Source of the DNA: Dyella acidisoli | GTDB taxonomy: Bacteria; Pseudomonadota; Gammaproteobacteria; Xanthomonadales; Rhodanobacteraceae | Assembly (NCBI RefSeq): GCF_030160295.1 | Contig: NZ_BSOB01000010.1 | Coordinates: forward strand, 272,084 to 336,083 | Length of the DNA stretch: 64,000 nucleotides | Direction of reading: 5' to 3' | Shown: positions 1 to 26,883 of the stretch, one piece after another | Numbering within the stretch: position 1 is the first letter of the stretch | How the letters are laid out: each line of letters begins with the position of its first letter | The notes under the pieces: generated by a model | Told to the model about the DNA's origin: nothing | Seen by the model: the letters and a program-made list of their open reading frames with translations, nothing else | Database searches by the model: none | Program-made: the position numbers and the translations under genes

Positions 1-150
1 AGGTAATGGATCAGCGGAAAGCATGTGCAACAGCGCCAACGTCGTCATGCTCGCAGCCAGGCCAATCGCCACCGTCAGCACGGCCAACGCCGTCGTCTTC
101 GGATAACGACGCAATCCCCGCAAGGCCAACTCCATGCTGTATCCAACCAT
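1..150 (-). CDS. ABC permease, long (L) type, 5' part only
   Basis: Only the first 50 codons are in the window; the gene runs off the left edge. It begins MVGYSMELALRGL and continues through a hydrophobic segment (about residues 18-40) to LLHMLSADPLP. These are the same landmarks as in the L-type permeases at 1423-2748 and 3997-5301 (LSGDPLP). The ATG at 148-150 follows a GGGGAG ribosome site. It lies just behind the S-type gene at 201-1412, so the L-S alternation continues beyond the window. It is an FtsX/MacB-type permease subunit by homology to its neighbours; its partner S gene should follow to the left. Confidence 0.85.
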   Translation of the reverse strand, partial: MVGYSMELALRGLRRYPKTTALAVLTVAIGLAASMTTLALLHMLSADPLP

Positions 151-200
151 ATACAACGTCACTCCCCTGTCCCTGTTGCCAGTAGCGCTTCGTTACGTCG

Positions 201-1412
201 TTATACGGATCGTGTAGCAACCACCGGCGGCACCGCTGCAGCGCGCAAGGCAGGCCCCAGCACCGCGAGTTGGCCTAGCAGCCAGAGCACGATGGCGCTT
301 GTCGCAACGTAAGCGGCGGGCAAATGGGTGACTTCGTAAGCTTTCATCAACATCACGTTCAAGGCGTAAGCCAGCAATACACCGAACACGATGCCCATCG
401 TCACGATGAGGAAATTCTCGGTTTGAAAATAGCGAAGGATGTCGCCGCGTGTCGCGCCAATCGCGCGGCGGATACCGATCTGCTTGCGGCGCTGCTGCAC
501 CCAGAAGCTCGCCAGGCCAACGATGCCGAGTGCGGTAACCAGCAGCAGCGCTGCAATCACCCCTACTAGTACTCGGGCCATGGCGCGGTCATTTTCGAAA
601 TAGGCGTAGCGAAATTCACTGATCGTCTTGGAGTCGTCCATGTCGAGCACCGTGTCAGGGGCGACTTTGGCTACGGCTGCGCGCACGTCGCGTAGTACAT
701 GCGAGATATCCTGTGGCCGCGCACGCAGAAGGTAACTGCCAGTCAGAAACGGCCCGGGTTGTGCCGGCACGAACACCGACCAGTCCACGCTGTACTGGCC
801 GCGACTGCCTGGCTGGGCGATCGCCAGGTGTTCAAGCACGCCTGCCACACGGTAGTGGCCGCCGGACCAGAACTCTTTGCCGAGCGGGTCTGCGCCCGGC
901 CATAGGTGGTCAGCTAATGAGCGCGTGATCCAGACCTGGGCACTACTAGGCAAGACATTGCTAAGCGACACATAGTCACTCGCCTGCGGCAAGCGGCCTG
1001 CAACAAGCTTCAAGCCCAACGACTGGAAACTGCTGGGTCCGCCGAGATAGAAATCGATGACCGCGTTGATTTGCTTCATCGCCGGGTCGAGAGACATGCC
1101 GTTCGCACCAGCCTGCGGTCCGAACGGCACCGTGTTGATCACGCTGACGGATTGCACCCTGTCGATCGCGGCAAGTCCGCTCAGCATTCGAGCATTGAGA
1201 TCGCGCGCCATTGCGTTGTCGAAACCGGTCAGCTGGACGATGGCCAGGGACGATTCATCGACACCGCTGTTGAGCTTCATACGCTGCTCGCGCCCCATGA
1301 TCAGAAAACAGGCATTGCATAACACGGCGCATGCCAAGGCGATTTCCATCGCAATCAGCAGGGTGGCGAGCCGGTGCCGGCGCAAAGCGGTGATGATGGG
1401 TCGAATCTGCAT
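201..1412 (-). CDS. ABC permease, short (S) type, pair 5
   Basis: MacB/FtsX-type permease of 403 aa. It has one N-terminal membrane segment (about residues 15-38), a large periplasmic region of roughly 230 residues, and three C-terminal membrane segments. The cytoplasmic stretch IGIRRAIGATRGDILRYF, between the second and third segments, matches the FtsX coupling region that contacts the ATPase. It ends PPVVATRSV like the S genes at 2766 and 5331. I chose the ATG at 1412 (MQIRPI) over the ATG two codons upstream, because AAGGGA is then 7-8 bases away and the start matches the other S genes. It follows the L gene at 1423 by ten bases and is inferred to pair with it. The exported substrate is unknown. 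Confidence 0.9.
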   Translation of the reverse strand: MQIRPIITALRRHRLATLLIAMEIALACAVLCNACFLIMGREQRMKLNSGVDESSLAIVQLTGFDNAMARDLNARMLSGLAAIDRVQSVSVINTVPFGPQAGANGMSLDPAMKQINAVIDFYLGGPSSFQSLGLKLVAGRLPQASDYVSLSNVLPSSAQVWITRSLADHLWPGADPLGKEFWSGGHYRVAGVLEHLAIAQPGSRGQYSVDWSVFVPAQPGPFLTGSYLLRARPQDISHVLRDVRAAVAKVAPDTVLDMDDSKTISEFRYAYFENDRAMARVLVGVIAALLLVTALGIVGLASFWVQQRRKQIGIRRAIGATRGDILRYFQTENFLIVTMGIVFGVLLAYALNVMLMKAYEVTHLPAAYVATSAIVLWLLGQLAVLGPALRAAAVPPVVATRSV

Positions 1413-1422
1413 GATCATTCCC

Positions 1423-2748
1423 TTACTGCGTCTTCAACTGCAGGGCCGGCGCAACGCGGCTGGCGCGAAAAGCCGGCAAGGCGCCCGCCAGCAAGCTGAC
1501 GGCAATGGACAGTGCAAACGTCGTCGCGAACATCAACACATCCAAGTGCACCATGTCCGCATAAGGTGTCGGCTGCCGGCGTACCAGCGATAGTCCTGCG
1601 AGCGTCAGCAACCAGCCCAGGACTCCGCCCAACACCCCAACTAACGCCGTCTCCATCAGGAATTGCGCAAAGATGGCCCCACGCGTTGCACCGAGTGCAC
1701 GGCGCACACCGATCTCGCCGCCTCGACGAAGAAACTTCGCCAGCAGCAATCCAATCGTGTTGAACAAGCAGATCGCCAGGAAGGCAAACGCTAGCCAGGT
1801 TTGCAGATGCACGTCGCTGGGCACAACGCCGTTGTAGTCAAGCCATTCCATCAGATTGGGCAAACGCGTGTTCTCAGCATGCGTAAAGCGACCCAATGAC
1901 TTTTGCTGCGCAGCGTAGTCCGCAAGGAAGCGGCGATAAGCTGCTGCCTTGCCTGCATCGCCGAGCTGCACCCACACGGTGACCCATTCGCATGGCGCGT
2001 CGATCAAATGCCCGGGTATTTTCGGCAACGCCCAGCAGGTGAATTGCTGGAAATTTCCGTCATTGATTTCCAAGCTACTGGAAAACGGCACGAACACATC
2101 TTCAGGCTTGCCATAGAAATCGGCAGTATCGCCATGCGCAAAACGGCCTCCCGCGACCATGTAGAACAACGGCGACGGTCGCCACGGCTTGAGTACGCCG
2201 ATGATGCGGACGTCCGTATTGCGCAAATGCAAGGTACGCCCAACGCTGTTGGCGCCACCGAACAACTTGTCGTTAAGCGATGCACTGATCACGGCCACGC
2301 GGGAGCGCCGCTCGTCGTCATCGGCAGTCCAACCCGATCCGTATTGGAACGGCACATCGAACATCGGGAAGAAGTCTGTCGTGGTCGAAAGCAGCATTAG
2401 CATCAACGGCGGCACGTTGGTTGCTGCAGCAACCACCTTGACCGGACTCTGCACCACCAGCGTTTGCCGGTCGGCGCGATGCGCACTCCACAGATCCATC
2501 GCGGAGCGGTAATCCATGACATCCATCGGCGTCTCGTGGGTTCTCTCTGGCGTGGGATCGGGATCCACCAACGGACGAAACAACGTGGCGCTCTTGCCAG
2601 GCAAAGGGTCGCCAGAGAGCAGATGCATGACGGTCAACGTCGTCATGCTCGCACCAATGCCCACGCCAATGGCAAGCACCATCAGCACGGTAAGCACTTT
2701 ATTGTGCTTGAGGCTGCGGATGGCCATATCAAGGTAATAACCGAACAT
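1423..2748 (-). CDS. ABC permease, long (L) type, pair 5
   Basis: MacB/FtsX-type permease of 441 aa beginning MFGYYLDMAIRSLKHNK. The first membrane segment spans about residues 18-42 and is followed by LSGDPLPGKS and a periplasmic domain of about 250 residues. The second membrane segment, around residue 320 (NTIGLLLAKFLRR), leads into the coupling motif EIGVRRALGATRGAIFAQF, and two more segments end the protein. The C-terminus PALQLKTQ is typical of the L type here. It shares TLTVMHLLSGDPLP features with the gene at 3997, which places it in the distal sequence group of the array. The intergenic gap to the upstream S gene (2766) is short, consistent with one operon. Confidence 0.92.
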   Translation of the reverse strand: MFGYYLDMAIRSLKHNKVLTVLMVLAIGVGIGASMTTLTVMHLLSGDPLPGKSATLFRPLVDPDPTPERTHETPMDVMDYRSAMDLWSAHRADRQTLVVQSPVKVVAAATNVPPLMLMLLSTTTDFFPMFDVPFQYGSGWTADDDERRSRVAVISASLNDKLFGGANSVGRTLHLRNTDVRIIGVLKPWRPSPLFYMVAGGRFAHGDTADFYGKPEDVFVPFSSSLEINDGNFQQFTCWALPKIPGHLIDAPCEWVTVWVQLGDAGKAAAYRRFLADYAAQQKSLGRFTHAENTRLPNLMEWLDYNGVVPSDVHLQTWLAFAFLAICLFNTIGLLLAKFLRRGGEIGVRRALGATRGAIFAQFLMETALVGVLGGVLGWLLTLAGLSLVRRQPTPYADMVHLDVLMFATTFALSIAVSLLAGALPAFRASRVAPALQLKTQ

Positions 2749-2765
2749 GCTCCCTCCCTAGACAG

Positions 2766-3995
2766 TTAGACGGATCGCGTCGCCACCACCGGCGGCACCG
2801 CCGCCGCGCGCAACGCCGGGCCCAGCACCGCGGCTTGCCCCAACCCCCACAACAGCATTGCGCCCACTGGGAAATAGACCGCCGGCAACCGCGGCAGCTC
2901 GTAATGCACGATTAAGAACAGATTGATGCCATAGGCCAGCACCATGCCCAGCACGATGCCCATGGTGGTGAGCAGGAAATTCTCGGTCTGGAAATAGTTG
3001 AGAATGTTGTAGCGAGTGGCGCCCAACGCGCGCCGTACGCCGATACTGCGGTTGCGTTGCGCCACCCAGAAACTGGCCAAGCCCACGATGCCCAGCGCGG
3101 TAACAATCAACAGTGCAAGACAGACCCCGACGAGGATGCCAGCCATCGCGCGGTCGTCACGAAAATAGCGGTGACGCAGCTCATCAAAAGTGCCTTTTTC
3201 GAGCACGATACGATTGGGATCAAGGCCTTTCAGTTTGGCAAGCGCCGCTTTCAGCACCTGCTCCCGGTCCTGCTGTGCACAGCGAATCACGTAGGACGCG
3301 CCACCGGACGCACTGTAGCGGATCGGATTGACTGCGCTGTATTGCTCGCCCTCCCTGATGCCGCCGCCACGTGCCAGTTCCCGTATCACGCCAATCACCG
3401 TCAGCGAGATGTTCTTCGCCACATAGATCTGCTTGCCGAGAGGGTTTTGTCCGGGCCAAAGCCGTTCGGCCATGGGTTGGGTGATCAACACGGATTTCGG
3501 TAGGGCATTCATATCCCCCTTGCGCAGCAAGGCATAGACATCGGCAAGGTCGTGATATTCATCGGCGCGAAAATCGCGACCTGCCACCAGTTGCACGCCG
3601 AGCGTGGGAATCACGTCTTCGCCCAAATATTGACTGGCGTTGATCTCATCGTTTTGTTGCTCGGGATCGGTCTTGATACCCATGTTCGAGGAAGAGCCAC
3701 CAAAAGGCAGTTGATTGGTAGCCATGGCCGACTTCACACCGGCGATCTCCTTCAGCGCAGCAAGATCGGCGGCTGAGCGCGCCATAGCGTCTGGGCGATT
3801 GTCGATATTGGCAAGCTGCACGTACACCAGTTCGTGCTCAGCCACACCGGTAGACATGTTCATGCGTTCCAGGCGCTGCCCAATGAGGAAAATGGCATTG
3901 CACACGATGGCGCAAGTCAGCGCGATCTGTGCAATCAGCAGGCAGGCGGTGAACTTGTGCCGACGCAACGTCGAGAGAATGGGTTTGATATCCAT
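2766..3995 (-). CDS. ABC permease, short (S) type, pair 4
   Basis: S-type permease of 409 aa beginning MDIKPILSTLRRHKF. One membrane segment at about residues 15-38 (CAIVCNAIFLIG) precedes the periplasmic domain. Three segments lie in the last 140 residues, with the coupling motif SIGVRRALGATRYNILNYF. The ATG is separated by one base from the stop codon of the L gene at 3997-5301, so the two are almost certainly translationally coupled and made in equal amounts. Sequence details (CLLIAQIALTCAIVCNA, TGVAEHEL) resemble the S gene at 201 more than the ATPase-proximal S genes. Confidence 0.92.
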   Translation of the reverse strand: MDIKPILSTLRRHKFTACLLIAQIALTCAIVCNAIFLIGQRLERMNMSTGVAEHELVYVQLANIDNRPDAMARSAADLAALKEIAGVKSAMATNQLPFGGSSSNMGIKTDPEQQNDEINASQYLGEDVIPTLGVQLVAGRDFRADEYHDLADVYALLRKGDMNALPKSVLITQPMAERLWPGQNPLGKQIYVAKNISLTVIGVIRELARGGGIREGEQYSAVNPIRYSASGGASYVIRCAQQDREQVLKAALAKLKGLDPNRIVLEKGTFDELRHRYFRDDRAMAGILVGVCLALLIVTALGIVGLASFWVAQRNRSIGVRRALGATRYNILNYFQTENFLLTTMGIVLGMVLAYGINLFLIVHYELPRLPAVYFPVGAMLLWGLGQAAVLGPALRAAAVPPVVATRSV

Positions 3996-3996
3996 G

Positions 3997-5301
3997 TCAA
4001 TTCGCCTTTAGCTGCAGTGCCGGAGTAATACGGCAGGCACGCCACGCCGGCAGTACGCCGGCCAGCAAACTGGCAAGCACTGCCAGCGTGAAAGTAGCCA
4101 GCAACATCGAAACATCCATGTGCGCAAGGCTGGCGTAACCGGCAGGTTGCTGCCGCACCAGCCAAAGGCCGAGCATCGCCAACAGCAATCCCCCAGTGCC
4201 GCCAGCAAGGCCAATGACGCCGGATTCCATCAGCAACTGCCCGAACAGCGCCCGCTGCGAAGCTCCCAGCGCGCGCCGCACACCCAATTCCGCAGAGCGG
4301 CGCATGAACTTCGACAGCATCAGGCCCACGGTGTTGACCAGACAAACGACGAGAAACCCCACGGACAACCATGTCTGCAAACGCGCATCACTCGGCACGA
4401 CGTGTTGGTAGTCCAGCCATTGCATGACGTTGCGCAAACGTACGTTGGGCGGGCGCTCGAAACGGCCCATTGCGTGCTGATCTTGCGAGTAATGAGTCAG
4501 GAAAGACTTGTATGCCTCCACATCAGCAGGCTTGTCCAGTTGCACCCAGAACTGCAGCCACGTGCAATTCACGCGCTCCAGATTGTCCTGATCGCCACCG
4601 GTGTTGCCCCAACAGTCTGTCGAACCGTCATGCTCCATCTTCAGATCGCGCGACGTCGATAGCGGAACGTACACATCCTCATCGCTTGCATAACTGCCCA
4701 TATAGAGCTGATAGAAGTGAGGATTGGGATGCCAATCACCTAACACGCCCACGATGCGAAAGCTCGTTTCCTGCAGCCTGAGCTCTTTGCCTACGCTATT
4801 GCCGCCACCAAACAGCTTGTCGTTCAATGAAGCACTGATCACAGCGACGCGCGCTTTGCCTTCATCTTCGTTTGCATTCCAGCCTTGGCCAAATTGGAAC
4901 GGCACACCGAACATCGGAAAGAAATCGGCCGTGGTATAGAGCGCGCTGGTCTGGAAGGGATCGACATTCGACTCGGTTGGCTGCAGCGGAACCATCCCTT
5001 CCGTCATGAGTGCTTGCCTGCTGGCACGCTTGGCTTTCAGCAAGTACATGCCGTCAGTCCAGGCGAGCTGATCCGGCGGCTCGACATTCGGCCCGTAGTC
5101 GTTCATATCGCGCGGATCGATCTGCGGGTAGTACAGCGATCCGCTGCGTCCAGGCAGCGGATCGCCGGAAAGCACATGCAGCACCGTCAGCGTGGTCATG
5201 CTTGCACCGATGCCAAGCGCAATGGCGAGCACCATCAGCGCGGTAAGCACGCGGTTCCGCTTCAGGCTGTGCAATGCGAGACTGAAGTAGTAGGACAACA
5301 T
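3997..5301 (-). CDS. ABC permease, long (L) type, pair 4
   Basis: L-type permease of 434 aa starting MLSYYFSLALHSLKRNR. Membrane segments are visible near residues 18-40, 315-340, 362-385 and 395-420. The coupling stretch is ELGVRRALGASQRALFGQL. The periplasmic part carries a short insertion rich in acidic and Cys/Trp residues (STDCWGNTGG), which also occurs, more or less altered, in other L genes and may be part of the ligand or adaptor contact. It ends PALQLKAN. It sits 29 bases downstream of the S gene at 5331, a slightly larger gap than within pairs. This fits an L-then-S pair as the unit. Confidence 0.92.
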   Translation of the reverse strand: MLSYYFSLALHSLKRNRVLTALMVLAIALGIGASMTTLTVLHVLSGDPLPGRSGSLYYPQIDPRDMNDYGPNVEPPDQLAWTDGMYLLKAKRASRQALMTEGMVPLQPTESNVDPFQTSALYTTADFFPMFGVPFQFGQGWNANEDEGKARVAVISASLNDKLFGGGNSVGKELRLQETSFRIVGVLGDWHPNPHFYQLYMGSYASDEDVYVPLSTSRDLKMEHDGSTDCWGNTGGDQDNLERVNCTWLQFWVQLDKPADVEAYKSFLTHYSQDQHAMGRFERPPNVRLRNVMQWLDYQHVVPSDARLQTWLSVGFLVVCLVNTVGLMLSKFMRRSAELGVRRALGASQRALFGQLLMESGVIGLAGGTGGLLLAMLGLWLVRQQPAGYASLAHMDVSMLLATFTLAVLASLLAGVLPAWRACRITPALQLKAN

Positions 5302-5330
5302 GACGCTCCCCTCGTGATTGTCCGTTGACG

Positions 5331-6584
5331 CTAAACCGACCGCGTCGCCACCACCGGCGGCACGTTCGACGCGCGTCGCGCCGGTACGAATACGGCGATC
5401 TGCCCCAGCGTCATGACGACCGCGAGACCCACGAGCACGTAATAGACAGGCATGCTCTGCATCTCGAATTTGCTCATCAACAGGCGGTTCAAACCGACTG
5501 CGAGCGCAACGCCGACTACTGCACCGATGCCTGCGATCATCAGGTTCTCAAGCTGGAAGTAGCGCAGGATGTCGATCTTGCGTGCACCCAGCGCGCGACG
5601 CACACCGATCTGTCGGTGACGCTGACCGACCCAGAAACTGGTCAGACCCACGATGCCCGCCGCCGTTACCGCGAGCAAGATGAGGCACACTGCCCCCATC
5701 AGTGCCGCCATGCCAATGTCGGCACGATAGGCTTCGGCGCGAATGTCTTTGAACGACTTGACGCTGTCGTCATCAAGCACCCGCATTGGACTGACCGTAT
5801 ACAGCGCGGACGGCACCGCACGCATGGCCGCCTCCAACCGACCCGGCTTGGCGCGCACCACGTAGCGTGAGAAGTTGCCATTGAGCCGAATCGGCTGGAT
5901 GGTCGAGTTCCAAACAAAGCTGCTGGCCCAACTGCCCACGGAAGGCACCTGCAGACGCTCCACTTCGCCGATGATGGTGGTCGGCTTGGAGTCGCCATTG
6001 AGGTAAATCACCTTGCCAACCGCGTTCGCCTCTGGGAACAGCTTGTCTGCCAGCGCCTTGGTAACGATCACGATGTCGGGCTGCGTGTTGGCTCGGAAGC
6101 CCATATTGGTCACATCAGCCGCAGTGAAATCGCGACCGGCAACCAGATGCAATCCCAATGTTTTCAGCCATTGCTCGTCGCCGAAATAGAAGGTGGTGCG
6201 CGCGTTACCCGAGCGCAGATCGGTACCTGGTTTCAGGGCAGCGGAACCGTTCCAGCTCGATGGCAGCAGCGGCACGGAGTTCGTCGGCGCCACGGACTCC
6301 ACATCAGGTAATGCACGTAGTGCATTCAGATCCTCACGCAACATGGCATCGAGCTTCTGAATGCTGGCGGGATCATCACCGCTGGGCGCACCGACCCATT
6401 GCTGGGTGACCAGGAACACATCGCTTTCGACCAGCCCTGTGGGCCGGCGTACATTTTCTATACGCGCATAAATGATGAAGATCGCATTGCAGACGATGGC
6501 GAGGGTCACCGCGATCTGCAGGGCGATCAGCACGACGCCGGCCTTGTGCTTGCGCAGTGCTGCGATCATGGGATGCAGGTTCAT
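5331..6584 (-). CDS. ABC permease, short (S) type, pair 3
   Basis: The longest S-type permease of the array at 417 aa. It begins MNLHPMIAALRKHKAG and shares the block KAGVVLIALQIAVTLAIVCNA with the S genes at 7966 and 10561 (proximal group). The periplasmic domain occupies about residues 45-280. The membrane segments after it carry QIGVRRALGARKIDILRYF. The C-terminus PPVVATRSV is shared with the distal S genes, so this gene is intermediate between the two groups. It follows its L partner (6595) by ten bases. Confidence 0.92.
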   Translation of the reverse strand: MNLHPMIAALRKHKAGVVLIALQIAVTLAIVCNAIFIIYARIENVRRPTGLVESDVFLVTQQWVGAPSGDDPASIQKLDAMLREDLNALRALPDVESVAPTNSVPLLPSSWNGSAALKPGTDLRSGNARTTFYFGDEQWLKTLGLHLVAGRDFTAADVTNMGFRANTQPDIVIVTKALADKLFPEANAVGKVIYLNGDSKPTTIIGEVERLQVPSVGSWASSFVWNSTIQPIRLNGNFSRYVVRAKPGRLEAAMRAVPSALYTVSPMRVLDDDSVKSFKDIRAEAYRADIGMAALMGAVCLILLAVTAAGIVGLTSFWVGQRHRQIGVRRALGARKIDILRYFQLENLMIAGIGAVVGVALAVGLNRLLMSKFEMQSMPVYYVLVGLAVVMTLGQIAVFVPARRASNVPPVVATRSV

Positions 6585-6594
6585 GGCGAAGCTC

Positions 6595-7920
6595 CTAGTT
6601 TGTTTTCAGCTGCAGCGCAGGCTGCACGCGCGAAGCGCGGAAGGTGGGATAGAGCCCAGCCAGCATCGTGGCGAGCACCGCTACCGCCAAGGTAAGCATC
6701 AGCAAAGCGAGATCGACGTGTGCCAACGAAGCGATTTCCTTGGGCAACACCCAACTGACGCAGCGCACACCTACCCAGGTCAACATCAGGCCCAGTACAC
6801 CGCCGGTCAGTCCGACCATGCCCGCTTCGATCAGAAACTGCATATAGATGGCCATGCGCGGCGCACCCAACGCGCGGCGTACGCCGATCTCCGAACTACG
6901 GCGCAGGAATTTCGCCAGCAACAAGCCCGCGGTATTCACCAGGCAAGCCACCAGCAGACCCAGTGCGACCATCAGCGAAATCTTGGTATCGCTCGGCACG
7001 ACGTGCTCGCTGTCCAGCCATGCTGGCAGATCGCGCAGCCGGTTGTTCACGGGCCAGTCGAAACGGCCGGCGGCTTTCTGGTCGCGGAAGTAGCCGTCCA
7101 GATAATCCTTATAAGCGGAGGCCGCAGCCTTGTCGTCCAGCTCAGCCATGTAGGAAATCCAGATGCACGAGGATTGCTGCAGACCGACGAAGCCCGACCC
7201 TTTGGGAATCTCCGCGCAATTGGTATTGCCGTCGTTGGGCATGCCTACATCGATGGCGCGAGTGAAGGGCAAGAACACGTCCTCCTGCCCGGTCGTGAAC
7301 CCGCCGGTATTTACGACGTCATAGAACACCGGTTTGGGGCTCCAGTTGTCCAACACACCGGTGACGCGATAATCCTTGCCGTCGATGTTGACGGTCTTGC
7401 CGATACTGTTGGCGCCGCCGAACAGCTTTTGATTGAGCTTGTCGCTGATCACAATCACGGCAGCACGCTGCGCATCGCTATCCGCGCCCCAGGCATTGCC
7501 GAACTTGAACGGCACATCGAGCATAGGAAAGAACTCGCTGTACACGGCATGGCCGCCGACATTGATCGGATGCTTGCTTGCGTCGGGCGGAACGATCGAC
7601 GGCGACACGCGATACATCGCGGACTGATACTTGGCGCGATGCTCACGCATCATCGCTACGGCATCGGTGTAATCCATCGCATCCGGTGGCTCGTTATTGT
7701 TGGTGCCGTCCCTACGCCCCTTCGGCCCCCACATGTCGATCTGCGGTACAAAAAGCCGAGATGACTTCCATGGAATCGGATCGCCCGACACGGCACGGAA
7801 CACGGAATAGCTGGTCATGGATGCAGCTACGCCGAACCCCACTATGAGGATCATCAGCGTGGTGAGCCCCGGGCTTCGTTTCAGACTACGCAGTGCCAAA
7901 TCAAGGTAATAGCCGAGCAT
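6595..7920 (-). CDS. ABC permease, long (L) type, pair 3
   Basis: L-type permease of 441 aa starting MLGYYLDLALRSLKRSPG. It has the proximal-group signature YSVFRAVSGDPIP followed by PQIDMWGPKGR at the start of the periplasmic domain. The periplasmic domain contains two cysteines (NTNCAEI and QSSCIWISY, around residues 237 and 253) that also occur in the L genes at 9204 and 11809, so a conserved disulfide is plausible. The coupling region is EIGVRRALGAPRMAIYMQF. The C-terminus is PALQLKTN. The 45-base gap from the upstream S gene (7966) is one of the larger ones in the operon. Confidence 0.92.
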   Translation of the reverse strand: MLGYYLDLALRSLKRSPGLTTLMILIVGFGVAASMTSYSVFRAVSGDPIPWKSSRLFVPQIDMWGPKGRRDGTNNNEPPDAMDYTDAVAMMREHRAKYQSAMYRVSPSIVPPDASKHPINVGGHAVYSEFFPMLDVPFKFGNAWGADSDAQRAAVIVISDKLNQKLFGGANSIGKTVNIDGKDYRVTGVLDNWSPKPVFYDVVNTGGFTTGQEDVFLPFTRAIDVGMPNDGNTNCAEIPKGSGFVGLQQSSCIWISYMAELDDKAAASAYKDYLDGYFRDQKAAGRFDWPVNNRLRDLPAWLDSEHVVPSDTKISLMVALGLLVACLVNTAGLLLAKFLRRSSEIGVRRALGAPRMAIYMQFLIEAGMVGLTGGVLGLMLTWVGVRCVSWVLPKEIASLAHVDLALLMLTLAVAVLATMLAGLYPTFRASRVQPALQLKTN

Positions 7921-7965
7921 CGGATGCCTCCCCGTTTTTGTTCGTCGTTATCGCGTTAAATCCGT

Positions 7966-9192
7966 TCATACCGATCGCGTCGCTTCCACCGGCGGCACGT
8001 GCGACGCACGCCACGCCGGTGCGAATACGGCGCACTGCCCCAGCAAAAGCAGCATCGCCACGCCGGCCAGTACATAACCCGGCGCAATCCGTTCCATCTC
8101 GAACTGTTTCATCAGCCAGAGATTCAATCCGATCGCCAGCAATCCACCCAGCACGACACCTGCCATGCAGATCAGCAGGTTTTCGGTAAGGAAATAGCCA
8201 AGGATGTCCTGCCGGGTGGCGCCCAATGCGCGCCGCACACCGATCTGCTTGCGGCGCTGTCCAACCCAGAAACTGGCAAGACCCACGATGCCCGCAGCAG
8301 TGGTCGCCACCAGAATCACACTGATGACGCCCATCAAAATGGCCATGCCGCGATCACTCTTATAGGCAGCGGCACGCACCTGCGCAAACGTCTTCACGCC
8401 ATCCTTGGGACGAATGACGCGCAGGCGCTGCGTCGCATATAGCGTCGCGCGCACACGTGTCGCCACATCCTCAATCTCCTCCGGCTGTGTGCGAATCAGG
8501 TAATGCGTGATGGTCACCAGGTTCCGGAATGGCAATAGCGTGGAGCAATCAGCCCATCGCGCCATGCTGTTGTCCACCCATGGTATTTGCAGGCGGTCGA
8601 CAATGCCGATGATGATGCTTGGCTCGTTGCTGATATAAGCGGTTTTTCCGAGCGCCGAACCATCCGGATAAAGCCGCCGCGCTAATTCGCGAGTGACGAT
8701 GATCACGGCCGGTGCGATCTTGTCGTTATCACCCAGTCCATTGATTTCATCAGCGTTGAAATTGCGCCCCTCGACCAGCTTCAGACCCAGCGTGGAAAGG
8801 GTGTTCTCATCCGAGAAATAGACTGCCGTTACGGAAACGTAATTGCGCTTGTCAGGACTATGGCCGATGCCGTTGGCGAAACCACCATTAGATAGGGGAT
8901 AGGTATTGGTTGCGTATACGTTCGCCACGCCAGGCATCTTCCGCAGGGTGTCGAGATCGGCCGCCATCAGCGATGCGATCTGGCCCGTAGCCGGCTTACC
9001 CGCCCATTCGTTCTTCACGACCAAGAGGCCCGATTCCTCTACGCCGCTGGGCTTATCCATACGGACCAACCGCTGATGGATGATGAACATGGCGTTGCAC
9101 ACAATCGCCAGCGTCAAAGCGATCTGCATGGCGATCAGCACGACGCCGGCCTTGTGGTAGCGGAGCGCGGCGAGGATGGGACTTATCTGCAT
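7966..9192 (-). CDS. ABC permease, short (S) type, pair 2
   Basis: S-type permease of 408 aa. The open frame extends 34 codons further upstream into the preceding gene. I take the ATG at 9190-9192 (MQISPILAALRYHKAG) because it lines up with the S gene at 10561 and has AAGG eight bases before it; the ATG two codons upstream would leave only two bases. One N-terminal and three C-terminal membrane segments are visible, with QIGVRRALGATRQDILGYF between them. It ends PPVEATRSV. It begins 11 bases after the stop codon of its L partner at 9204. Confidence 0.9.
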   Translation of the reverse strand: MQISPILAALRYHKAGVVLIAMQIALTLAIVCNAMFIIHQRLVRMDKPSGVEESGLLVVKNEWAGKPATGQIASLMAADLDTLRKMPGVANVYATNTYPLSNGGFANGIGHSPDKRNYVSVTAVYFSDENTLSTLGLKLVEGRNFNADEINGLGDNDKIAPAVIIVTRELARRLYPDGSALGKTAYISNEPSIIIGIVDRLQIPWVDNSMARWADCSTLLPFRNLVTITHYLIRTQPEEIEDVATRVRATLYATQRLRVIRPKDGVKTFAQVRAAAYKSDRGMAILMGVISVILVATTAAGIVGLASFWVGQRRKQIGVRRALGATRQDILGYFLTENLLICMAGVVLGGLLAIGLNLWLMKQFEMERIAPGYVLAGVAMLLLLGQCAVFAPAWRASHVPPVEATRSV

Positions 9193-9203
9193 CGTCATCG
9201 CCT

Positions 9204-10520
9204 TCAATTTGATTTGAGCTGCCATGCGGGCTGCACCCTTGATGCACGCCAGATGGGATAGAACGCTGCCGCAAGCGTCGATACCAATGCGCACACCAGC
9301 GTCAGCCCGATCAAGCCAGTATTGACGCGAGCAAGCCTGGCAATATCCGGCTCGAACACCAGGCCGACACTCAGCGCGCCAAGTCCAGTGAAAACCACGC
9401 CAACCACACCACCACCCACGCCCACCATGGCGGCCTCAAAGAGAAACTGCGTCCAGATTTCCTTGCGGGATGCACCTAGGGCGCGACGCACGCCAATTTC
9501 CCCGGCGCGGCGCATGAACTTTGCGAGCATCAGGCCGATCGTGTTGATCAGGCACACCAGCAGAAAACCTAACGACAACCACAGCGAAATGCGTGTCTCG
9601 GGTGGCACGACCTTTTCGTAATCCAGCCATTCGACGAGGTTGCGCAGCGTGATATACGGCTTCCAATGAAAGCGCCCTGCGCGATTCTGGTCCGCTGCAT
9701 AGTTCGTGAGGTAATCGCGATAAGCAGCTTCGGCTTTTGCATCCGGCAGCTCTGCCCAGTACGACACCCAGGCGCAATCGGAATGTATGAAGCCATCGAA
9801 ACCCGGGTTGCGTCCGGCACTGCCGTAGCAGTTGGTATTGCCGTTGGTGTTTATCTGCAAATCGATTCCCCGCGTGAACGGCAGGAAGATATCGGGTGCA
9901 TCGTTGAAGCCGTCGGAATTGTTCACATCGTAAAAGCGCGGCTTTGGATTCCAGCCATCGACTACGCCCACGATCTCGTAATCGTGATCGTCCAGCCGGA
10001 TGGTGCTGCCCACACTGTCAGAGCCCTGGAACAATTGCTGATTGAGCTGACTGCTGATTACGACCACTGCCGCATGTGTATCATCCTGGGCCATGTTCCA
10101 CGCCCCTCCATAGAGGAACGGCGCCTTGAACATGGAGAAGAAATCGGCATAGGCCGCATAACCGTTTATCGCGAACGGCTCGCTACGCTCGTCCTGCGGA
10201 ACGAGCGTGAGATTGACCGGATAGATGGCGGTCTGCCGCCTTGCTTTCTTGTCTCGCAGCAACGCCATCGCATCGGTGTAAGTAAGCGCATCTGGCATAT
10301 CAGCGCCCTGCGCACGGCTCTGCGGTCCCCAAATGTCGATCTGCGGCGCGAACAGCTGCAAGGATTTCTCCGGCAAGGGATTGGCCGAAACCGCGCGGAA
10401 CACCGCGTAGGTGGTCATCGACGATGCAACGCCAATGCCGATGGTCAACACCATCAGCATCGTGAGAATCGGATTGCGCAGCAAGCTGCGCACCCCTAAG
10501 CGGAAATAGTAGGCAAGCAT
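9204..10520 (-). CDS. ABC permease, long (L) type, pair 2
   Basis: L-type permease of 438 aa. A longer open frame exists upstream, but the ATG at 10518-10520 (MLAYYFRLGVRSLLRNP) has a GGGAG site and matches the starts of the other L genes. It has the proximal-group signature YAVFRAVSANPLP and PQIDIWGPQSR. A paired-cysteine stretch (NTNCYGS and HSDCAWVSY) sits in the periplasmic domain. Coupling residues are EIGVRRALGASRKEIWTQF, and the end is PAWQLKSN. Together with 7966 it forms a complete L-S pair. Confidence 0.92.
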   Translation of the reverse strand: MLAYYFRLGVRSLLRNPILTMLMVLTIGIGVASSMTTYAVFRAVSANPLPEKSLQLFAPQIDIWGPQSRAQGADMPDALTYTDAMALLRDKKARRQTAIYPVNLTLVPQDERSEPFAINGYAAYADFFSMFKAPFLYGGAWNMAQDDTHAAVVVISSQLNQQLFQGSDSVGSTIRLDDHDYEIVGVVDGWNPKPRFYDVNNSDGFNDAPDIFLPFTRGIDLQINTNGNTNCYGSAGRNPGFDGFIHSDCAWVSYWAELPDAKAEAAYRDYLTNYAADQNRAGRFHWKPYITLRNLVEWLDYEKVVPPETRISLWLSLGFLLVCLINTIGLMLAKFMRRAGEIGVRRALGASRKEIWTQFLFEAAMVGVGGGVVGVVFTGLGALSVGLVFEPDIARLARVNTGLIGLTLVCALVSTLAAAFYPIWRASRVQPAWQLKSN

Positions 10521-10560
10521 GCCGATCACTCCCTCCCCTTGCGCCTCGACGAATGCATGC

Positions 10561-11793
10561 TCATACCGGCCGCGTCGCCTCCACGGGTGATACACGCGAT
10601 GCACGCAGCGCCGGTGCGAACACTGCGCCTTGACCCAGCAGTAGCAGGATCACTACGCCACTGAGCACGTATGCCAACGGCATCACCCTCAACTCGAAGC
10701 GCGTGACCAACCAGAGATTCAGGCCGAACGTCAGCAGTACGCCAACCGCGATACCACCCAGGCTGATCAGCAGATTTTCGGTAAGGAAGTAATGCAGGAT
10801 GTCGCGATGCGTGGCACCCAGCGCGCGTCGCACGCCGATCTGCTTGCGACGTTGTCCCACCCAGAAGCTGGTAAGGCCCACAATGCCCGCACCCGTAATC
10901 GCCAGCAGTACGACACAGATGATGCCAAGCAGAACTGCCATACCGCGATCACGGTTGTAAGCGCGTTGGCGTACCTGCGCAAAGCTCAGGAGCCCATCAT
11001 GAGAATCGATGATGCGCATACGGTTACGCCCATACAACGCCTTGGGCGCCTCTTGCATCGCCGCGGCAAGCTGTCCGGGCTTGGCGCGCACAATGTAGTA
11101 GAGACCAATCGGAATCGCCTGGCGCATGGGCCATATCAACGATTGATTGACGAAGGGTGCACTCCAGGTGTTCACCTCCTCGCGCTGCAAACGTTCGACG
11201 ATGCCGATGATGACGGTGGGTTCTGCGCTCATCGAATAGAGCGGCTTGCCTAGCGCATTGCCGTCCGGGAAAAGCTTGTCAGCCATGGCCTTGCTGACGA
11301 TAACCACGGGCGGGTGGATGTTCTCACGCGTCCCCATGTCGCGTACTTCATCGGGCGTGAAGTCTCGGCCGGCGATCAATTTGACGCCCAAGGTATGTAT
11401 CAGGCTCTCATCACTGATGTACACCGAGGCATCGGTTGTCGGCTTGATCTGTTCGGGCGTCAACGAAATGAAGTTGTCCCAACCGCCGCCGCGCAGAGGA
11501 TAGCTGTTGCTCGGTGCAGCATCCTCGACGGCGGGGAGCTGGCGCAGCGCAGCCAGGTCCGCCTTGATTTCAGAGGACGCCTCCTGGGTGGAGTACTGCA
11601 CTCCCCAGAAATTTTCGATCACGAACAGATTGGCTTCGTCGACACCGCTAGGTTCGGAAAGGTGCGACAGACGCTGGTGAATGATGAACAGTGCGTTGCA
11701 CACGATCGCCAGGGTCAAGGCGATCTGCAAGGCAATGAGCAACGTGCCGGCCTTGTGTCGACGTAGGGCAGCCAGAATAGGTTGAATCTGCAT
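10561..11793 (-). CDS. ABC permease, short (S) type, pair 1
   Basis: S-type permease of 410 aa beginning MQIQPILAALRRHKAG, the S gene nearest the ATPase. The periplasmic domain follows TLAIVCNALFIIHQRL. The C-terminal half has three membrane segments and the coupling motif QIGVRRALGATHRDILHYF. It ends PVEATRPV, the only S gene whose last residues differ (PV rather than SV). Sixteen bases separate it from the L gene at 11809. Confidence 0.92.
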   Translation of the reverse strand: MQIQPILAALRRHKAGTLLIALQIALTLAIVCNALFIIHQRLSHLSEPSGVDEANLFVIENFWGVQYSTQEASSEIKADLAALRQLPAVEDAAPSNSYPLRGGGWDNFISLTPEQIKPTTDASVYISDESLIHTLGVKLIAGRDFTPDEVRDMGTRENIHPPVVIVSKAMADKLFPDGNALGKPLYSMSAEPTVIIGIVERLQREEVNTWSAPFVNQSLIWPMRQAIPIGLYYIVRAKPGQLAAAMQEAPKALYGRNRMRIIDSHDGLLSFAQVRQRAYNRDRGMAVLLGIICVVLLAITGAGIVGLTSFWVGQRRKQIGVRRALGATHRDILHYFLTENLLISLGGIAVGVLLTFGLNLWLVTRFELRVMPLAYVLSGVVILLLLGQGAVFAPALRASRVSPVEATRPV

Positions 11794-11808
11794 ACGTGCT
11801 CCCTCGCC

Positions 11809-13119
11809 TCAATTGGATTTCAGTTGCCACGCCGGCTGCACTTGCGCTGCACGCCAAGCTGGATAGAACGCAGCCGCGATCGTCGCCAGAATGGCCACCA
11901 TCAACGTCAGACCAATCAGCGAAACATCCAGATGCGCCAACTTTGCAATCTCAGGCTCGAACAGCAGGCCGACACCCGACATGCCTGCCGCCGTCAACAC
12001 CAAGCCCAGTACACCGCCGGCCAGCCCGACCGCTCCGGCCTCCACCAGGTACTGCGCGTAAATTTCATGACGTGTCGCACCAAGCGCTCGACGCACGCCG
12101 ATTTCAGCGGCACGGCGCATAAACTTCGCCAATAGCAATCCGATCGTGTTGACCAGACAGATGATGAAGAAGCCCGATGCCACCGCCAGCGAAATGCGGC
12201 TTTCTGGCGGCACGACTTTCTGCTCCTCCAGCCACCCCATCACATTGCGCAAACGTATATTGGGCGACCACGCGAAACGCCCTGCGTGTTGTTGGTCGGC
12301 AGCATAGGCTTCCAGGAACTGGCGATAGCGCGCCACTTCGCTGGACGAATCCAACTCGACCCAGGGCATCATCCACACGCAGTCGCTTTGCAGCCATTGA
12401 TTCCAGCCATTGAATTCCAGCCGACCGCGGCAGCTGTTTCTGCCCGAGGTGTCGATTTGCAGATCGAGCATGCGATTGAGCAGCACATAGAAATCGGGCG
12501 AATCACTAAAGGCGCTATCACTCCAGACCGCGTAGAAGCGCGGCGATGGATCCCAGTGCTTCGCCACGCCGACGACGCGATAATCGTGGCCCGACAGGGT
12601 AATGTTCTTGCCTACGCTGTTCGCACCGCCGAACATGCGCTGATTGAATTCTTCGCTAAGCACGATATCTGCGGCGCGCTTCTCGTCATCACTGCCAGTC
12701 CAGGCATTGCCGTACAAGAAAGGCACATTGAACATCGGAAAGAAGTCGCTCATGACCGCATAACCACCGGTCGAAACGAGCGTACTGCTGGAACCCGGCT
12801 GAGGCGAAGAAAGCATGACCGGATAAATCAAGGTCTGGCGCGAAGCCTGATGCGCCCTCATCAACGCTATGGCATCGATATAATCCAACGCTCCGGGCGG
12901 CTCACCCTTTTCGTTTTGCTGCGGCCCCCAGTTATCGACCTGAGGCACGAACAGCTGCGATGACTTTTCTGGAATCGGATTGCCCGACACGGCGCGGAAT
13001 ACCGAGTAGGTAATCATCGATGCGGACACGCCGAAGCCGATCGCCATCACCATCAGTGCGGTGAGCATCGGGTTGCGCCGGAGGCTGCGTAGACCGAGCT
13101 GGAGGTAGTAGGTGAACAT
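11809..13119 (-). CDS. ABC permease, long (L) type, pair 1
   Basis: First permease after the ATPase; L type, 436 aa, beginning MFTYYLQLGLRSLRRNPML. It has the proximal-group signature YSVFRAVSGNPIPEKSSQLF, then PQVDNWGPQQ. Cysteines in NSCRGRL and QSDCVWMMPW (about residues 225-250) match those in the L genes at 6595 and 9204. The coupling region is EIGVRRALGATRHEIYAQY, and the end is PAWQLKSN. A family A repeat (13151-13229) lies between this gene and the ATPase gene. It could lower or stabilise the downstream part of the transcript. Confidence 0.92.
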   Translation of the reverse strand: MFTYYLQLGLRSLRRNPMLTALMVMAIGFGVSASMITYSVFRAVSGNPIPEKSSQLFVPQVDNWGPQQNEKGEPPGALDYIDAIALMRAHQASRQTLIYPVMLSSPQPGSSSTLVSTGGYAVMSDFFPMFNVPFLYGNAWTGSDDEKRAADIVLSEEFNQRMFGGANSVGKNITLSGHDYRVVGVAKHWDPSPRFYAVWSDSAFSDSPDFYVLLNRMLDLQIDTSGRNSCRGRLEFNGWNQWLQSDCVWMMPWVELDSSSEVARYRQFLEAYAADQQHAGRFAWSPNIRLRNVMGWLEEQKVVPPESRISLAVASGFFIICLVNTIGLLLAKFMRRAAEIGVRRALGATRHEIYAQYLVEAGAVGLAGGVLGLVLTAAGMSGVGLLFEPEIAKLAHLDVSLIGLTLMVAILATIAAAFYPAWRAAQVQPAWQLKSN

Positions 13120-13150
13120 GAAAAGTCCCGATAGAGCCCATTTGTTCTGC

Positions 13151-13229
13151 CGTCATTCCCGCGAAAGCGGGAATCCATCTTGAAGATGTACCAAGAGCAA
13201 AATGGATTCCCGCTTTCGCGGGAATGACG
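13151..13229. repeat. Dispersed palindrome, family A
   Basis: Two inverted arms of about 29 bases surround a 20-base spacer. Each arm is itself a hairpin built on TTCCCGCgaaaGCGGGAA. It lies in the 169-base gap between the ATPase gene and the first permease gene, inside the operon. Related copies occur at 19873, 22199, 31281, 40441 and 59191, and a more diverged one at 24581. Confidence 0.9.
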
Positions 13230-13288
13230 CCACAGAGGGAAGATCACGCGACTGTGTGGCTATCCATGTCCACAAGCAGTGCGTTGAG

Positions 13289-14011
13289 CTATCCCCGCAC
13301 CTGTCCTGCCGCTGCTGCATACGCCGTGTGGAAACGCGGATCCTCCGCCAGATCCACCACTTGACCATCGATGATGTGCACGTTGCGCTGCGCGCGCGCA
13401 GCGAGTTCCGGATCGTGCGTTACCATCACAATCGTTGCGCCTTCGCGATGGATCTCTTCGAGCAGTTCCAGCACGCCGCGCGCCATCTGCGTATCCAGAT
13501 TGCCGGTGGGTTCGTCGGCGAGCAGCAAACGCGGGCTGCCGGCGAGCGCGCGGGCAATCGCCACGCGCTGTTGCTGACCGCCAGAAAGCTCTGCCGGATA
13601 GTGCTTGGCGCGCGAGGCAAGACCGACGCGTTCCAGCGCGTCCATGATGCGTTGCTTGCGTTCCGGTGCCTTCATGCCGCGATAGCGCAGCGGCACTTCT
13701 ACGTTGTCGAACACGTTGAGGTCGGGAATCAGGTTGAATGCCTGGAAGATGAAGCCGATTTTTTCGTTGCGTATCCTTGAGCGTGCGTTGTCGTCGAGGT
13801 GGCTCACTTCGACGCCGTCAAGGTGGTATTCACCGCCAGTAAAAGTTTCCAGCAGGCCAGCAATGGTGAGGAAGGTGGTTTTGCCCGAACCGGACGGACC
13901 GGTTACGGCGACGAACTCGCCTTCCTTCACGTCGATGTTGAAATCGCGAAGCGCGTACGTTTCCACGACTTCGGTGCGATAAACCTTGGAGAGATGCGTC
14001 ATCTTCAGCAT
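13289..14011 (-). CDS. ABC transporter ATP-binding protein, MacB/LolD type
   Basis: Stand-alone ATPase subunit of 240 aa. Walker A is GPSGSGKTT (about residues 38-46), the Q-loop lies in IFQAFNLIPDL, the signature is LSGGQQQRVAIARAL (about 143-157), Walker B is RLLLADEPTGNLD (about 163-175), and the switch histidine is in MVTHD (about 198-202). This is the arrangement of the MacB/LolD/FtsE branch, whose members drive mechanotransmission rather than classical transmembrane pumping. It is the only ATPase gene seen next to eleven permease genes, so it probably serves all of the pairs. The ATG at 14011 follows AAGGAT at about eight bases. It is 29 bases downstream of the adaptor gene. Confidence 0.95.
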   Translation of the reverse strand: MLKMTHLSKVYRTEVVETYALRDFNIDVKEGEFVAVTGPSGSGKTTFLTIAGLLETFTGGEYHLDGVEVSHLDDNARSRIRNEKIGFIFQAFNLIPDLNVFDNVEVPLRYRGMKAPERKQRIMDALERVGLASRAKHYPAELSGGQQQRVAIARALAGSPRLLLADEPTGNLDTQMARGVLELLEEIHREGATIVMVTHDPELAARAQRNVHIIDGQVVDLAEDPRFHTAYAAAAGQVRG

Positions 14012-14040
14012 GAGTTTTATCCTTCGGTTGGTGTTTGCCG

Positions 14041-15312
14041 TCAGCGGCTGATCACGACGCGCTGCGCGCCTTTGAAATTGTCGGTACCGGAGATCACGAT
14101 GTTGTCGCCTTCCTTCAGGCCATCGAGGATTTCCACTTTGTCGATGCTACTTTCGCCTGCGCGAATCGTGGTCTTGGTGGCGATGCCGTCGCGCACGACA
14201 TAGGCATAGCTGCCGCCGGATTCGTCTACGAAGGAACCACGCTGCACCGTGAGCACGTTGTCGCGATGGTCGAGCAGAATGCGCACGGACAAGCGCTGGT
14301 TCTGACGCAGTTGCTTGGGCGTGCCACCTTCGAAGCGCACGCGCGCGGCCACCTCGCCATTCACCACTTCAGGCGAAATCGCGCTGACCAAGCCCTTCCA
14401 GTTGTTGCCGTTGCCGCTGATTTCGCCGCCCATGCCCACCGCAAGATCGCGTGCGAAGCTTTCAGGCACTTTCACTTCCACTTCCAGCGCAGAAAGATCG
14501 ATCACGCTGAGCAGTTGCGCATCTTTCGCCACCGTGGCGCGTTCGGCGATGAAAAGCTGACCCACCTGGCCGTCCACCGGCGAGCGCACGTTGAGGTTGT
14601 CGACTTGGCGCTGCAGATCCTGCACCAGCAATACCTGGCGATCATGCGCGAGTTTCTTCGCCTTGATGTCAAAAGTGCCGGTATCGCTGTCGAGATTGAG
14701 ATCGCCCTGCGCGTGCGCCATGGTGATCTTGGCTTTGTTCAGCGCATCCTTCATTTTGTCCACTTCCATCTGTGGCACGCCGCCGAGTTTGTATGCTTCC
14801 TGGTAGCGGTCGTAATCGCGCGATGCGGTTTCCTGGTCGATCTTGGCGTTGTCATACGCCTTTTGCATTTCCGACTGTTTCTTGCGCGCATCAATCTGCG
14901 CACGCAGATAGTCGACCTCCATCGCGTCGGCGTTGGATTGTTCCTGCGCAAGCTTGTTGACCAGCTCGGGGCTTTCGATCACTGCCAGCACCTGGCCCTT
15001 CTTTACCGTATCGCCCGCATGCACTTTTAGCGTGACTGCCCCGCCGTAGGTGGCATACATCGTCGGGCTGACCGCGGCAACCACTTGGCCTTCGGCCGCG
15101 ATGTCGCGAATGAAGGGGCCGCGTTGCACGGTGGCGAACGCCAAGCGCGAGGCGCTCACTGATGCGTCGGCGGAAAACAAACGCGTGACGCTGGGCATCA
15201 AGAAGGCCAATACGATCACGGCAGCCACCGCGCCGCCTATCCATAAGAATTTTTTCTTGGGATTGGATTTGACCTCGACCAGACGGTCCTGGGCGGAAGT
15301 GTCACGAATCAT
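14041..15312 (-). CDS. HlyD/MacA-type periplasmic adaptor
   Basis: Membrane-fusion protein of 423 aa. After about 23 cytoplasmic residues (KKKFLWIG) there is one membrane segment (about residues 26-44). A lipoyl half follows (VQRGPFIRDIAAEGQV to VIESPELVNKL), then an alpha-hairpin of about residues 100-200 rich in Gln, Lys and Glu, and then the second lipoyl half and beta-barrel domains (VRSPVDGQVGQL, VEVKVPESFARDL). Adaptors of this type bridge an inner-membrane MacB-like pump to a TolC-like outer-membrane channel; no channel gene is in the window. I chose the ATG at 15310-15312 (MIRDTSAQDRL) because AAGGA lies seven bases upstream, and not the earlier in-frame start. It is the first gene of the operon, behind a sigma-54 box. 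Confidence 0.93.
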   Translation of the reverse strand: MIRDTSAQDRLVEVKSNPKKKFLWIGGAVAAVIVLAFLMPSVTRLFSADASVSASRLAFATVQRGPFIRDIAAEGQVVAAVSPTMYATYGGAVTLKVHAGDTVKKGQVLAVIESPELVNKLAQEQSNADAMEVDYLRAQIDARKKQSEMQKAYDNAKIDQETASRDYDRYQEAYKLGGVPQMEVDKMKDALNKAKITMAHAQGDLNLDSDTGTFDIKAKKLAHDRQVLLVQDLQRQVDNLNVRSPVDGQVGQLFIAERATVAKDAQLLSVIDLSALEVEVKVPESFARDLAVGMGGEISGNGNNWKGLVSAISPEVVNGEVAARVRFEGGTPKQLRQNQRLSVRILLDHRDNVLTVQRGSFVDESGGSYAYVVRDGIATKTTIRAGESSIDKVEILDGLKEGDNIVISGTDNFKGAQRVVISR

Positions 15313-15355
15313 GGTGCAGTCCTTGGCCGCGGACAGTGCGGCCCCTGACCATGAG

Positions 15356-15372
15356 TTGCAATCCGCGTGCCA
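15356..15372 (-). promoter_or_regulatory. Sigma-54 (RpoN) -24/-12 promoter of the ABC operon
   Basis: Read on the minus strand the box is TGGCACGCGGATTGCAA. The GG (15371-15370) and GC (15359-15358) are exactly ten bases apart, and the flanks match the RpoN consensus TGGCACG-N4-TTGCA completely. Transcription would start about 12 bases after the GC, near 15346, leaving a leader of about 35 bases before the adaptor ATG. The match, spacing and position upstream of the first gene make chance unlikely. The activator is not in the window. Confidence 0.85.
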
Positions 15373-15437: not shown

Positions 15438-15469
15438 CTGTCCGCGGACACTCGCCGGACAGCGGACAG
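15438..15469 (-). promoter_or_regulatory. Candidate upstream activator sites for the sigma-54 promoter
   Basis: The segment has a perfect 12-base palindrome, TGTCCGCGGACA (15439-15450), followed by two direct half-sites, CCGGACA (15455-15461) and GCGGACA (15462-15468). CTGTCCGC and GCGGACAG also form an 8-base inverted repeat (15438-15445 and 15462-15469). They lie about 80-110 bases upstream of the -12 element, the usual distance for an enhancer-binding protein. The segment also sits just past the stop codon of the gene at 15477, so a terminator hairpin is an alternative reading. Confidence 0.55.
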
Positions 15470-26710: not shown

Positions 26711-26883
26711 CGCCGTCTTCTTTCATCCGGACTGTGAGCCGCCCCGGCGAACCGGAAACAGCTTGACCGTCGGCTCCGGCATTGGACCGGATCTGCTGAC
26801 CTTCCGGCGGGACCGGAAGCGCTCGCGGGCTCAGACCTTACGGTCCCTACCGCCGGTGGGGAATTCCACCCCGCCCTGAAGAC
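26711..26883 (-). ncRNA. FMN riboswitch (RFN element)
   Basis: Read on the minus strand the element runs from GTCTTCAGGGCGGGGTGGAA through ATTCCCCACCGGCGGTA and AGCCCGCGAGC, then GGTCAGCAGATCCGGT, GCCGGAGCCGACGGT, and closes with AGTCCGGATGAAAGAAGAC. All the conserved blocks of the six-way FMN aptamer are present in order, with a variable P2-type hairpin between TAGGGACCG and GGTC. When FMN is bound, such elements turn off downstream riboflavin genes, here ribE and ribBX. The expression platform is in the 290-base leader that follows. Confidence 0.96.

Follow-up and report, generated by a model that had tools for sequence, protein, structure and literature searches.

The window analysed here is a 64,000-nucleotide (nt) stretch of the Dyella acidisoli genome (G000, 5.34 Mb; the window is G000:C10:272084-336083), which holds an array of genes for an ATP-binding cassette (ABC) transporter of the MacB type. 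Together with the flanking contig, the array consisted of one periplasmic adaptor gene and one ATPase gene followed by six pairs of permease genes, L and S, each of which encodes one half of an ADOP/MacB-type permease; such a pair is called a head below. An earlier note on this DNA had counted one adaptor, one ATPase and at least eleven permeases on one strand, and extension of the contig to the left (locus L011) added the rest of L6, then S6 and the end of the array, which brought the total to 12 permeases.

Gene content of the array

All genes of the array were on the minus strand, and the nine gaps from L1 to S5 were 1-45 nt long. The genes 3' of S6 encoded an alpha/beta hydrolase, a YkuD-domain protein, an NtrC-like response regulator and a histidine kinase. 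The two objections that the earlier note had raised against itself were removed: no second ATPase gene was interleaved through the array end and no tandem ATPases were present on the flanking contig, while an array of mostly pseudogene pairs was excluded because the ten complete permeases of the window were full-length open frames, incomplete permeases occurred only at the ends of contigs or fetched stretches, and the pairs were conserved across the genus.

Pfam and NCBIfam confirmed the adaptor, the ATPase, L1, S1, L5, S5, L6 and S6, and the L and S profiles recovered all array permeases. With Pfam, FtsX was over its cut-off in 6/6 permeases scanned (L1, S1, L5, S5, L6 and S6) and MacB_PCD in four of them, with a weak match in S6 and none detected in S5. 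With NCBIfam, three L copies (L1, L5 and L6) aligned to positions 5-401 of the 803 positions of the ADOP model (TIGR03434), its N-terminal half, and three S copies (S1, S5 and S6) aligned to positions 410-801, its C-terminal half, so that L and S together match a single duplicated permease, divided over two genes. In genome G008, one L and one S are naturally fused into a protein of 857 amino acids (aa), with the L match at residues 2-434 and the S match at 450-857, and this fusion spanned the model at 341 bits. However, the array permeases are split in two genes, and the scanned copies (135-186 bits each) as well as the fusion stayed below the curated ADOP cut-off of 622.3 bits, which ruled out the array as an ADOP operon.

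For the ATPase, the Walker A, signature and H-loop motifs were found by pattern and Walker B (LLLADEP) by eye. Structure models of L3 and S3, whose predicted local distance difference test (pLDDT) scores are given in Table 1, had MacB (5gko) as the first match among solved structures, with BceAB and LolCDE also among the structural matches. Two cysteines in the periplasmic part were common to 7/7 L copies of G000. With permeases of these domains and this fold and an ATPase from the LolD/FtsE/MacB group whose motifs are intact, the array encodes a type VII (MacB/FtsX) ABC transporter, and the MacA/HlyD-type adaptor in the operon is as in MacAB-TolC-like pumps. No outer-membrane channel gene was found in the array; 47 OEP domain matches were located elsewhere in the genome. 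Finally, the strong repetitive extragenic palindromic (REP)-like hairpin between the ATPase and L1 genes might determine how much motor is made relative to the heads.

Table 1. Features of the array and its upstream region in the window (positions in the window)
Feature	Position	Strand	Evidence and remarks
L6 start (first codons)	1..162	-	remainder outside the window (L011)
S5 permease	201..1418	-	PF02687; ADOP C-half
L5 permease	1423..2748	-	Pfam, NCBIfam, L profile
S4 permease	2766..3995	-	alignment to other copies and S profile
L4 permease	3997..5301	-	alignment to other copies and L profile
S3 permease, 'core' head class	5331..6584	-	model pLDDT 91.8
L3 permease, 'core' head class	6595..7920	-	class in 15/16 genomes; model pLDDT 87.8
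S2 permease	7966..9192	-	start trimmed from 9294 by alignment to other copies
L2 permease	9204..10520	-	start trimmed from 10604 by alignment to other copies
S1 permease	10561..11793	-	PF12704, PF02687; ADOP C-half
L1 permease	11809..13119	-	PF12704, PF02687; ADOP N-half
REP-like hairpin, 35-nt arms	13148..13232	.	within the 169-nt ATPase-L1 gap
ABC ATPase (LolD/MacB/DarD type), 240 aa	13289..14011	-	PF00005; best NCBIfam match DarD, below its cut-off
Periplasmic adaptor (MacA/HlyD type), 423 aa	14041..15312	-	PF16576, PF13437, TIGR01730 above cut-off
Second near-palindrome TGTCCGCGGCCA (11/12)	15324..15335	-	between promoter and adaptor start; -23 from adaptor start
Sigma-54 (-24/-12) promoter TGGCACGCGGATTGCA	15357..15372	-	perfect match to the consensus, found three times in the genome
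Palindrome TGTCCGCGGACA, likely enhancer (upstream activating sequence) of the NtrC-like regulator	15439..15450	.	exact match, G000:C10:287522-287533
189-aa protein of unknown function	15477..16046	-	upstream of the operon; kept beside most genus arrays

Distribution of the array and its predicted sigma-54 switch

The earlier note had proposed that genomes be searched for adaptor-ATPase-(L-S)n operons. Such an operon was found in 16/16 genomes of the genus sample (G000-G015) with n = 1 to 8 and is therefore not a product of chance. The arrays had 6, 5, 6, 4, 5, 3, 4 and 4 pairs in G000-G007 and 7, 6, 8, 6, 1, at least 6, 4 and at least 3 pairs in G008-G015, where contig ends truncated two arrays (G013 and G015), and G015 had 2 more pairs on another contig. 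A total of 135 matches to the L profile were obtained in the 16 genomes, comprising 80 array members and 55 unlinked L-S pairs, one of which was an L-S fusion; G008, with 7 pairs in the array and 10 elsewhere, reached 17 heads. In the order sample, 37 of 61 genomes had a match at E ≤ 1e-60, and all 20 order loci fetched carried the adaptor, the ATPase and L-S; n was 1 in 15 loci and 2, 3, 4, 4 and 6 in the others. The phylum sample of 120 genomes gave matches at E ≤ 1e-90 in five, of which four (G000 among them) belong to the order and one to the class. Since n = 1 predominates outside the genus, the single pair is probably ancestral and the arrays an expansion. Judged by the adaptor, the named species nearest to G000 belong to Dyella. 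The record CAJCJD010000048.1 (locus L022), which is titled Candidatus Eremiobacteraeota, contains a Dyella-like array with an adaptor 86% identical, and its label is probably wrong.

A copy number that ranges from 1 to 8 among close relatives would be expected if the heads were redundant, with copies that do the same job and only raise the dosage. However, identity to the first copy within the window array was about 33-55% for L and 34-53% for S, and head classes were common to several species, and redundancy is accordingly considered very improbable. The 'core' class (pair 3 of G000) was present in 15/16 genomes, a count from which a G015 pair possibly of this class was left out as contig-cut, and it was the sole head of G012. 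Several clusters contained both array and unlinked members.

The adaptor gene was preceded by a sigma-54 site matching in 12/12 letters in 16/16 genus arrays, and the exact palindrome TGTCCGCGGACA (12/12 letters) was present upstream of the array in 16/16 genomes. An NtrC-like regulator gene followed the array in 15/15 cases with the array end in view, accompanied by a histidine kinase in 13 of them (one was cut off and one, in G006, was not seen). At the order loci, a sigma-54 match of at least 10/12 was found in 15/20 and an NtrC-like regulator within the stretch in 11/20. A genome search for the palindrome followed after 43-72 nt by a loose sigma-54 pattern produced 63 sites in the 16 genomes compared to 0 for the reversed pattern. 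The 50 sites with loci returned were located upstream of an array (14), a micro-protein gene (26), an unlinked L gene (9) and nothing recognised (1), with two of the 50 reassigned by eye, and the spacing from palindrome to promoter was 64-68 nt in 49/50 sites. The promoter, the upstream site at fixed spacing and the activator gene are the parts of a sigma-54/NtrC-type regulon, in which the regulator is predicted from sequence to bind the palindrome. The sigma-54 promoter and palindrome of the operon, common to 13/55 unlinked pairs and to micro-protein genes, and the NtrC-like regulator at its 3' end are new here; the unlinked pairs, the switch and the micro-proteins lay beyond what the earlier note could see.

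These micro-proteins are the third gene type behind the switch. They start with MKFET or similar, have 28 to 76 residues with one hydrophobic stretch and are often in tandem. Differences per codon position were 0.159, 0.089 and 0.390 (10 sequences of the 28-residue type), which indicates that the MKFET micro-proteins are coding, and a search for a Pfam name gave no match. G000 has its own MKFET genes behind the palindrome and sigma-54 promoter at C10:873, C10:529269 and C18:37449 (loci L198, L231 and L237). Among 11 genomes from other genera, 4 had such sites, 8 in total, three before arrays, three before micro-proteins and two (L250 and L254) before other secreted-looking proteins, and the set outside Dyella may thus hold other genes. 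Micro-proteins in the same promoter set, the YkuD-domain protein and the hydrolase encoded after S6 and the LolCDE structural matches would all suit a system for envelope maintenance (Lol-like handling of lipoproteins, lipids or cell wall) rather than export, with the MKFET proteins as cargo or helpers. This is thought rather improbable, as the arrays have a MacA-type adaptor and several other arrays lack neighbouring YkuD and hydrolase genes.

The neighbours of the unlinked pairs were BlaI/M56 genes in 13/55 cases and a LytTR two-component system in 10/55. The BlaI/M56 (BlaR1-like) genes were directly before the L-S pair at locus L012 and 12 further unlinked loci, and the only unlinked pair of G000 was of this kind. 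A dipeptidyl peptidase (DPP) IV-like peptidase gene faces the L-S pair in several BlaI/M56 loci. The palindrome and promoter were present before 13/55 unlinked pairs, and one more had the palindrome with a weaker promoter. Pairs that follow such regulators, the NtrC-like regulator after the array and BceAB among the structural matches could also mean that the pairs are mainly sensors or stress-relief modules, comparable to BceAB-type permeases that sense drug flux, so that the many heads would stand for many signals and not many substrates. There is little probability in this explanation, because the MacA-type adaptor in every array points to export and the kinases carry sensor parts of their own.

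Pairing of the permeases and probable sharing of the motor

The earlier note took the pairs to be interchangeable, with L and S swapping partners. For 116 complete pairs among the 135 L matches (the rest being 17 unlinked loci fetched later and two contig-cut pairs), the L and S distances within genomes correlated at 0.75 (shuffled mean 0.03, maximum 0.16) and the agreement of L and S clusters was 0.954 (shuffled maximum 0.069). Partner swapping is unsupported by such congruent distances and clusters, and since the L and S trees agree closely, the heads look like fixed L-S pairs rather than mix-and-match subunits.

Each of the 16 genomes had exactly one ATPase at 94-100% identity to the array ATPase, and the next-best ATPase reached 57-59% in five genomes and no more than 49% in the others. 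The adaptor was also single per genome at 84-100% identity, with the next best at 29% or less. No match to the array ATPase at E ≤ 1e-20 was found beside any of the 55 unlinked pairs in the stretches fetched, some of which ended at contig ends. This is the genomic pattern of a multitask ATPase, namely several permease sets without an ATPase and one candidate ATPase in the genome. In the five genomes with the 57-59% ATPase, that ATPase has a second adaptor of its own, and in the four of them fetched (L141-L144) it precedes two or three fused ADOP-like permeases in tandem. Two of these fused permeases were scanned and passed the ADOP cut-off, so that true ADOP-scoring proteins belong to a separate adaptor-ATPase-permease operon of some Dyella genomes.

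The array ATPase diverged by 3.3% on average over 120 genome pairs, less than three control ATPases. The control from a MacAB-like system that has two permeases diverged by 6.1% and another by 8.6%, while the FtsE-like control is given by its median of 6.1% because of divergent outliers (maximum 62%, mean 12.8%); the genome pairs are non-independent and three control families are few. The adaptor diverged by 13.0% compared to 17.5% for the control adaptor, while core-class permeases diverged more than control permeases (L 19.7% vs 14.5%; S 25.2% vs 15.6%). Conservation within L and S was highest in the cytoplasmic coupling segments (0.70-0.77 on a sum-of-squares scale) and lowest in the periplasmic stretches (minimum 0.28 for L, 0.15 for S), and this profile agreed between 78 copies from arrays and 54 from unlinked pairs (r 0.90). 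The presence of a single close ATPase in each genome, the slow evolution of this ATPase, and conserved coupling against variable periplasmic segments support motor sharing indirectly, and the motor is likely shared among the heads. The proposal in the earlier note that the pairs share one motor and one adaptor is thus supported directly for the single ATPase and adaptor that stand against many pairs and by this indirect route for the sharing of the motor.

The proposed export system and its relatives

Overall, the array is read here as a shared-motor, many-headed type VII (MacB-like) export system with heads partly in trans and an envelope-response-type switch, with a probability of about 0.65. 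L and S, both four-helix permeases of the MacB/FtsX fold, would form a fixed heterodimer, and any head would bind two copies of the single ATPase at its conserved cytoplasmic coupling segments. The single adaptor would join the heads to an outer-membrane channel, which must come from elsewhere since the array has no channel gene. As the heads differ mostly in their periplasmic parts, each probably handles a different substrate, taken from the periplasm. The kinase and NtrC-like regulator at the array end would act via the palindrome on the sigma-54 promoters of the array, some unlinked pairs and the MKFET genes. Unlinked pairs with their own regulators (BlaI/M56 or LytTR) lack an ATPase of their own and probably borrow the same motor. 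A more far-reaching version, to which somewhat less than an even chance is given, is that one ATPase and adaptor serve up to 17 heads per genome under one sigma-54 switch, with the MKFET proteins as accessory subunits or cargo and with heads gained, lost and moved (in one genome to a nonribosomal peptide synthetase (NRPS) neighbourhood), a substrate being added without a new motor.

Several observations weigh against the shared-motor reading. Trees would agree equally well if pairs duplicated as units, so that physical pairing is a prediction from the trees, and slow ATPase evolution, measured over non-independent genome pairs, has other possible causes. A convincing sigma-54 site was missing from 5/20 order loci, the palindrome was absent from 41/55 unlinked pairs including the only one of G000, and no regulator was recognised for 18/55; such pairs may use other ATPases. 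Other MacB/Lol/FtsE-type ATPases, at 59% identity or less, were present in every genome. At locus L119, an ABC ATPase that weakly matches a control ATPase (92 bits) is encoded on the opposite strand, 2.8 kb from the unlinked pair, and the pair at L072 in G002 has a C39-peptidase ABC exporter 1.5 kb upstream, which the ATPase search overlooked, so that the search would miss distant ABC types. It is conceivable, if unlikely, that the array shares its own ATPase while the unlinked pairs depend on different motors of the cell (LolD, ADOP-type or MacAB-type), of which the 57-59% ATPase with its own adaptor and fused permeases would be one. However, G002, G014 and G015 have unlinked pairs bearing the palindrome and promoter and no other ATPase above 49%, and several unlinked pairs cluster with array pairs.

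Hints to the substrates of the proposed shared-motor system came from three sources. In G003, an unlinked pair with a LytTR system (L102/L103, G003:C26) was located beside a thioesterase gene and a divergent NRPS frame of 2991 aa; a MATE domain shares a frame with an adenylation domain at this locus. The other two were the C39-peptidase exporter at L072 and the best model of the ATPase, DarD of the darobactin exporter. On these grounds, peptide-like antibiotics or metabolites are guessed as substrates, and a variable resistance or communication system, as the earlier note had put it, is possible. No consistent substrate theme was found in the other neighbours scanned, the hints being confined to the NRPS and C39-peptidase neighbours.

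The array resembles MacAB-TolC in its MacB_PCD/FtsX permease fold, MacA-type adaptor and related ATPase. However, according to passages of PMC5985334, MacB forms a homodimer and carries ATPase and permease on a single chain, whereas the ATPase here is a protein of its own and one operon holds up to eight distinct L-S pairs. With DarBCD, the array shares DarD as the best NCBIfam match of the ATPase and DarC among the adaptor matches, but these reached 255.7 of 375 bits and 81.2 of 450 bits, both below cut-off, and the DarB model is one fused permease. LolCDE has one fixed LolC-LolE pair and is not known to have a MacA-type adaptor. Passages of PMC8277102 describe it as a heterodimer of four-helix permeases with two copies of a single ATPase, which is the arrangement proposed for the L-S heads.

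Shared ATPases are known for importers. The energy-coupling factor (ECF) importers are one such parallel. Others are described for MsmX/MsmK, where one ATPase energises several type I importers whose operons lack an ATPase (PMC7658222), and for MceG, the shared ATPase of the Mce transporters (PMC9947336). MsmX and MsmK serve type I sugar importers with a binding protein, whereas the permeases here are of the type VII MacB/FtsX fold and the motor and adaptor head the largest permease cluster. Reviews of MacB-type pumps mention homodimers, heterodimers and fused permeases in the passages searched (PMC5985334, PMC8277102), and the term 'multiple permease(s)' was not found in the searched text of these two. 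Within the terms searched, no description of a shared-ATPase MacB-type exporter of this kind was found in the open-access literature. For the MKFET proteins, a likeness exists to AcrZ, which PMC7267776 describes as a tiny one-helix protein co-occurring with an efflux pump; the two were compared by description, as tiny one-helix membrane proteins with an exporter.

If the shared-motor reading is true, MacB-type exporters would be modular like some importers, with one energy module and many substrate modules, and permease pairs annotated without an ATPase would be explained. The heads would then form a natural set for studying how one ATPase recognises many permeases, and the assignment of heads to substrates would be directly testable. 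In addition, the palindrome-promoter pair is a simple genomic handle for further members and ties the micro-protein family to an exporter. Finally, elsewhere in the window, a flavin mononucleotide (FMN) riboswitch (RF00050, 97 bits) was located at 26711-26887 on the minus strand in a flavin synthesis region.

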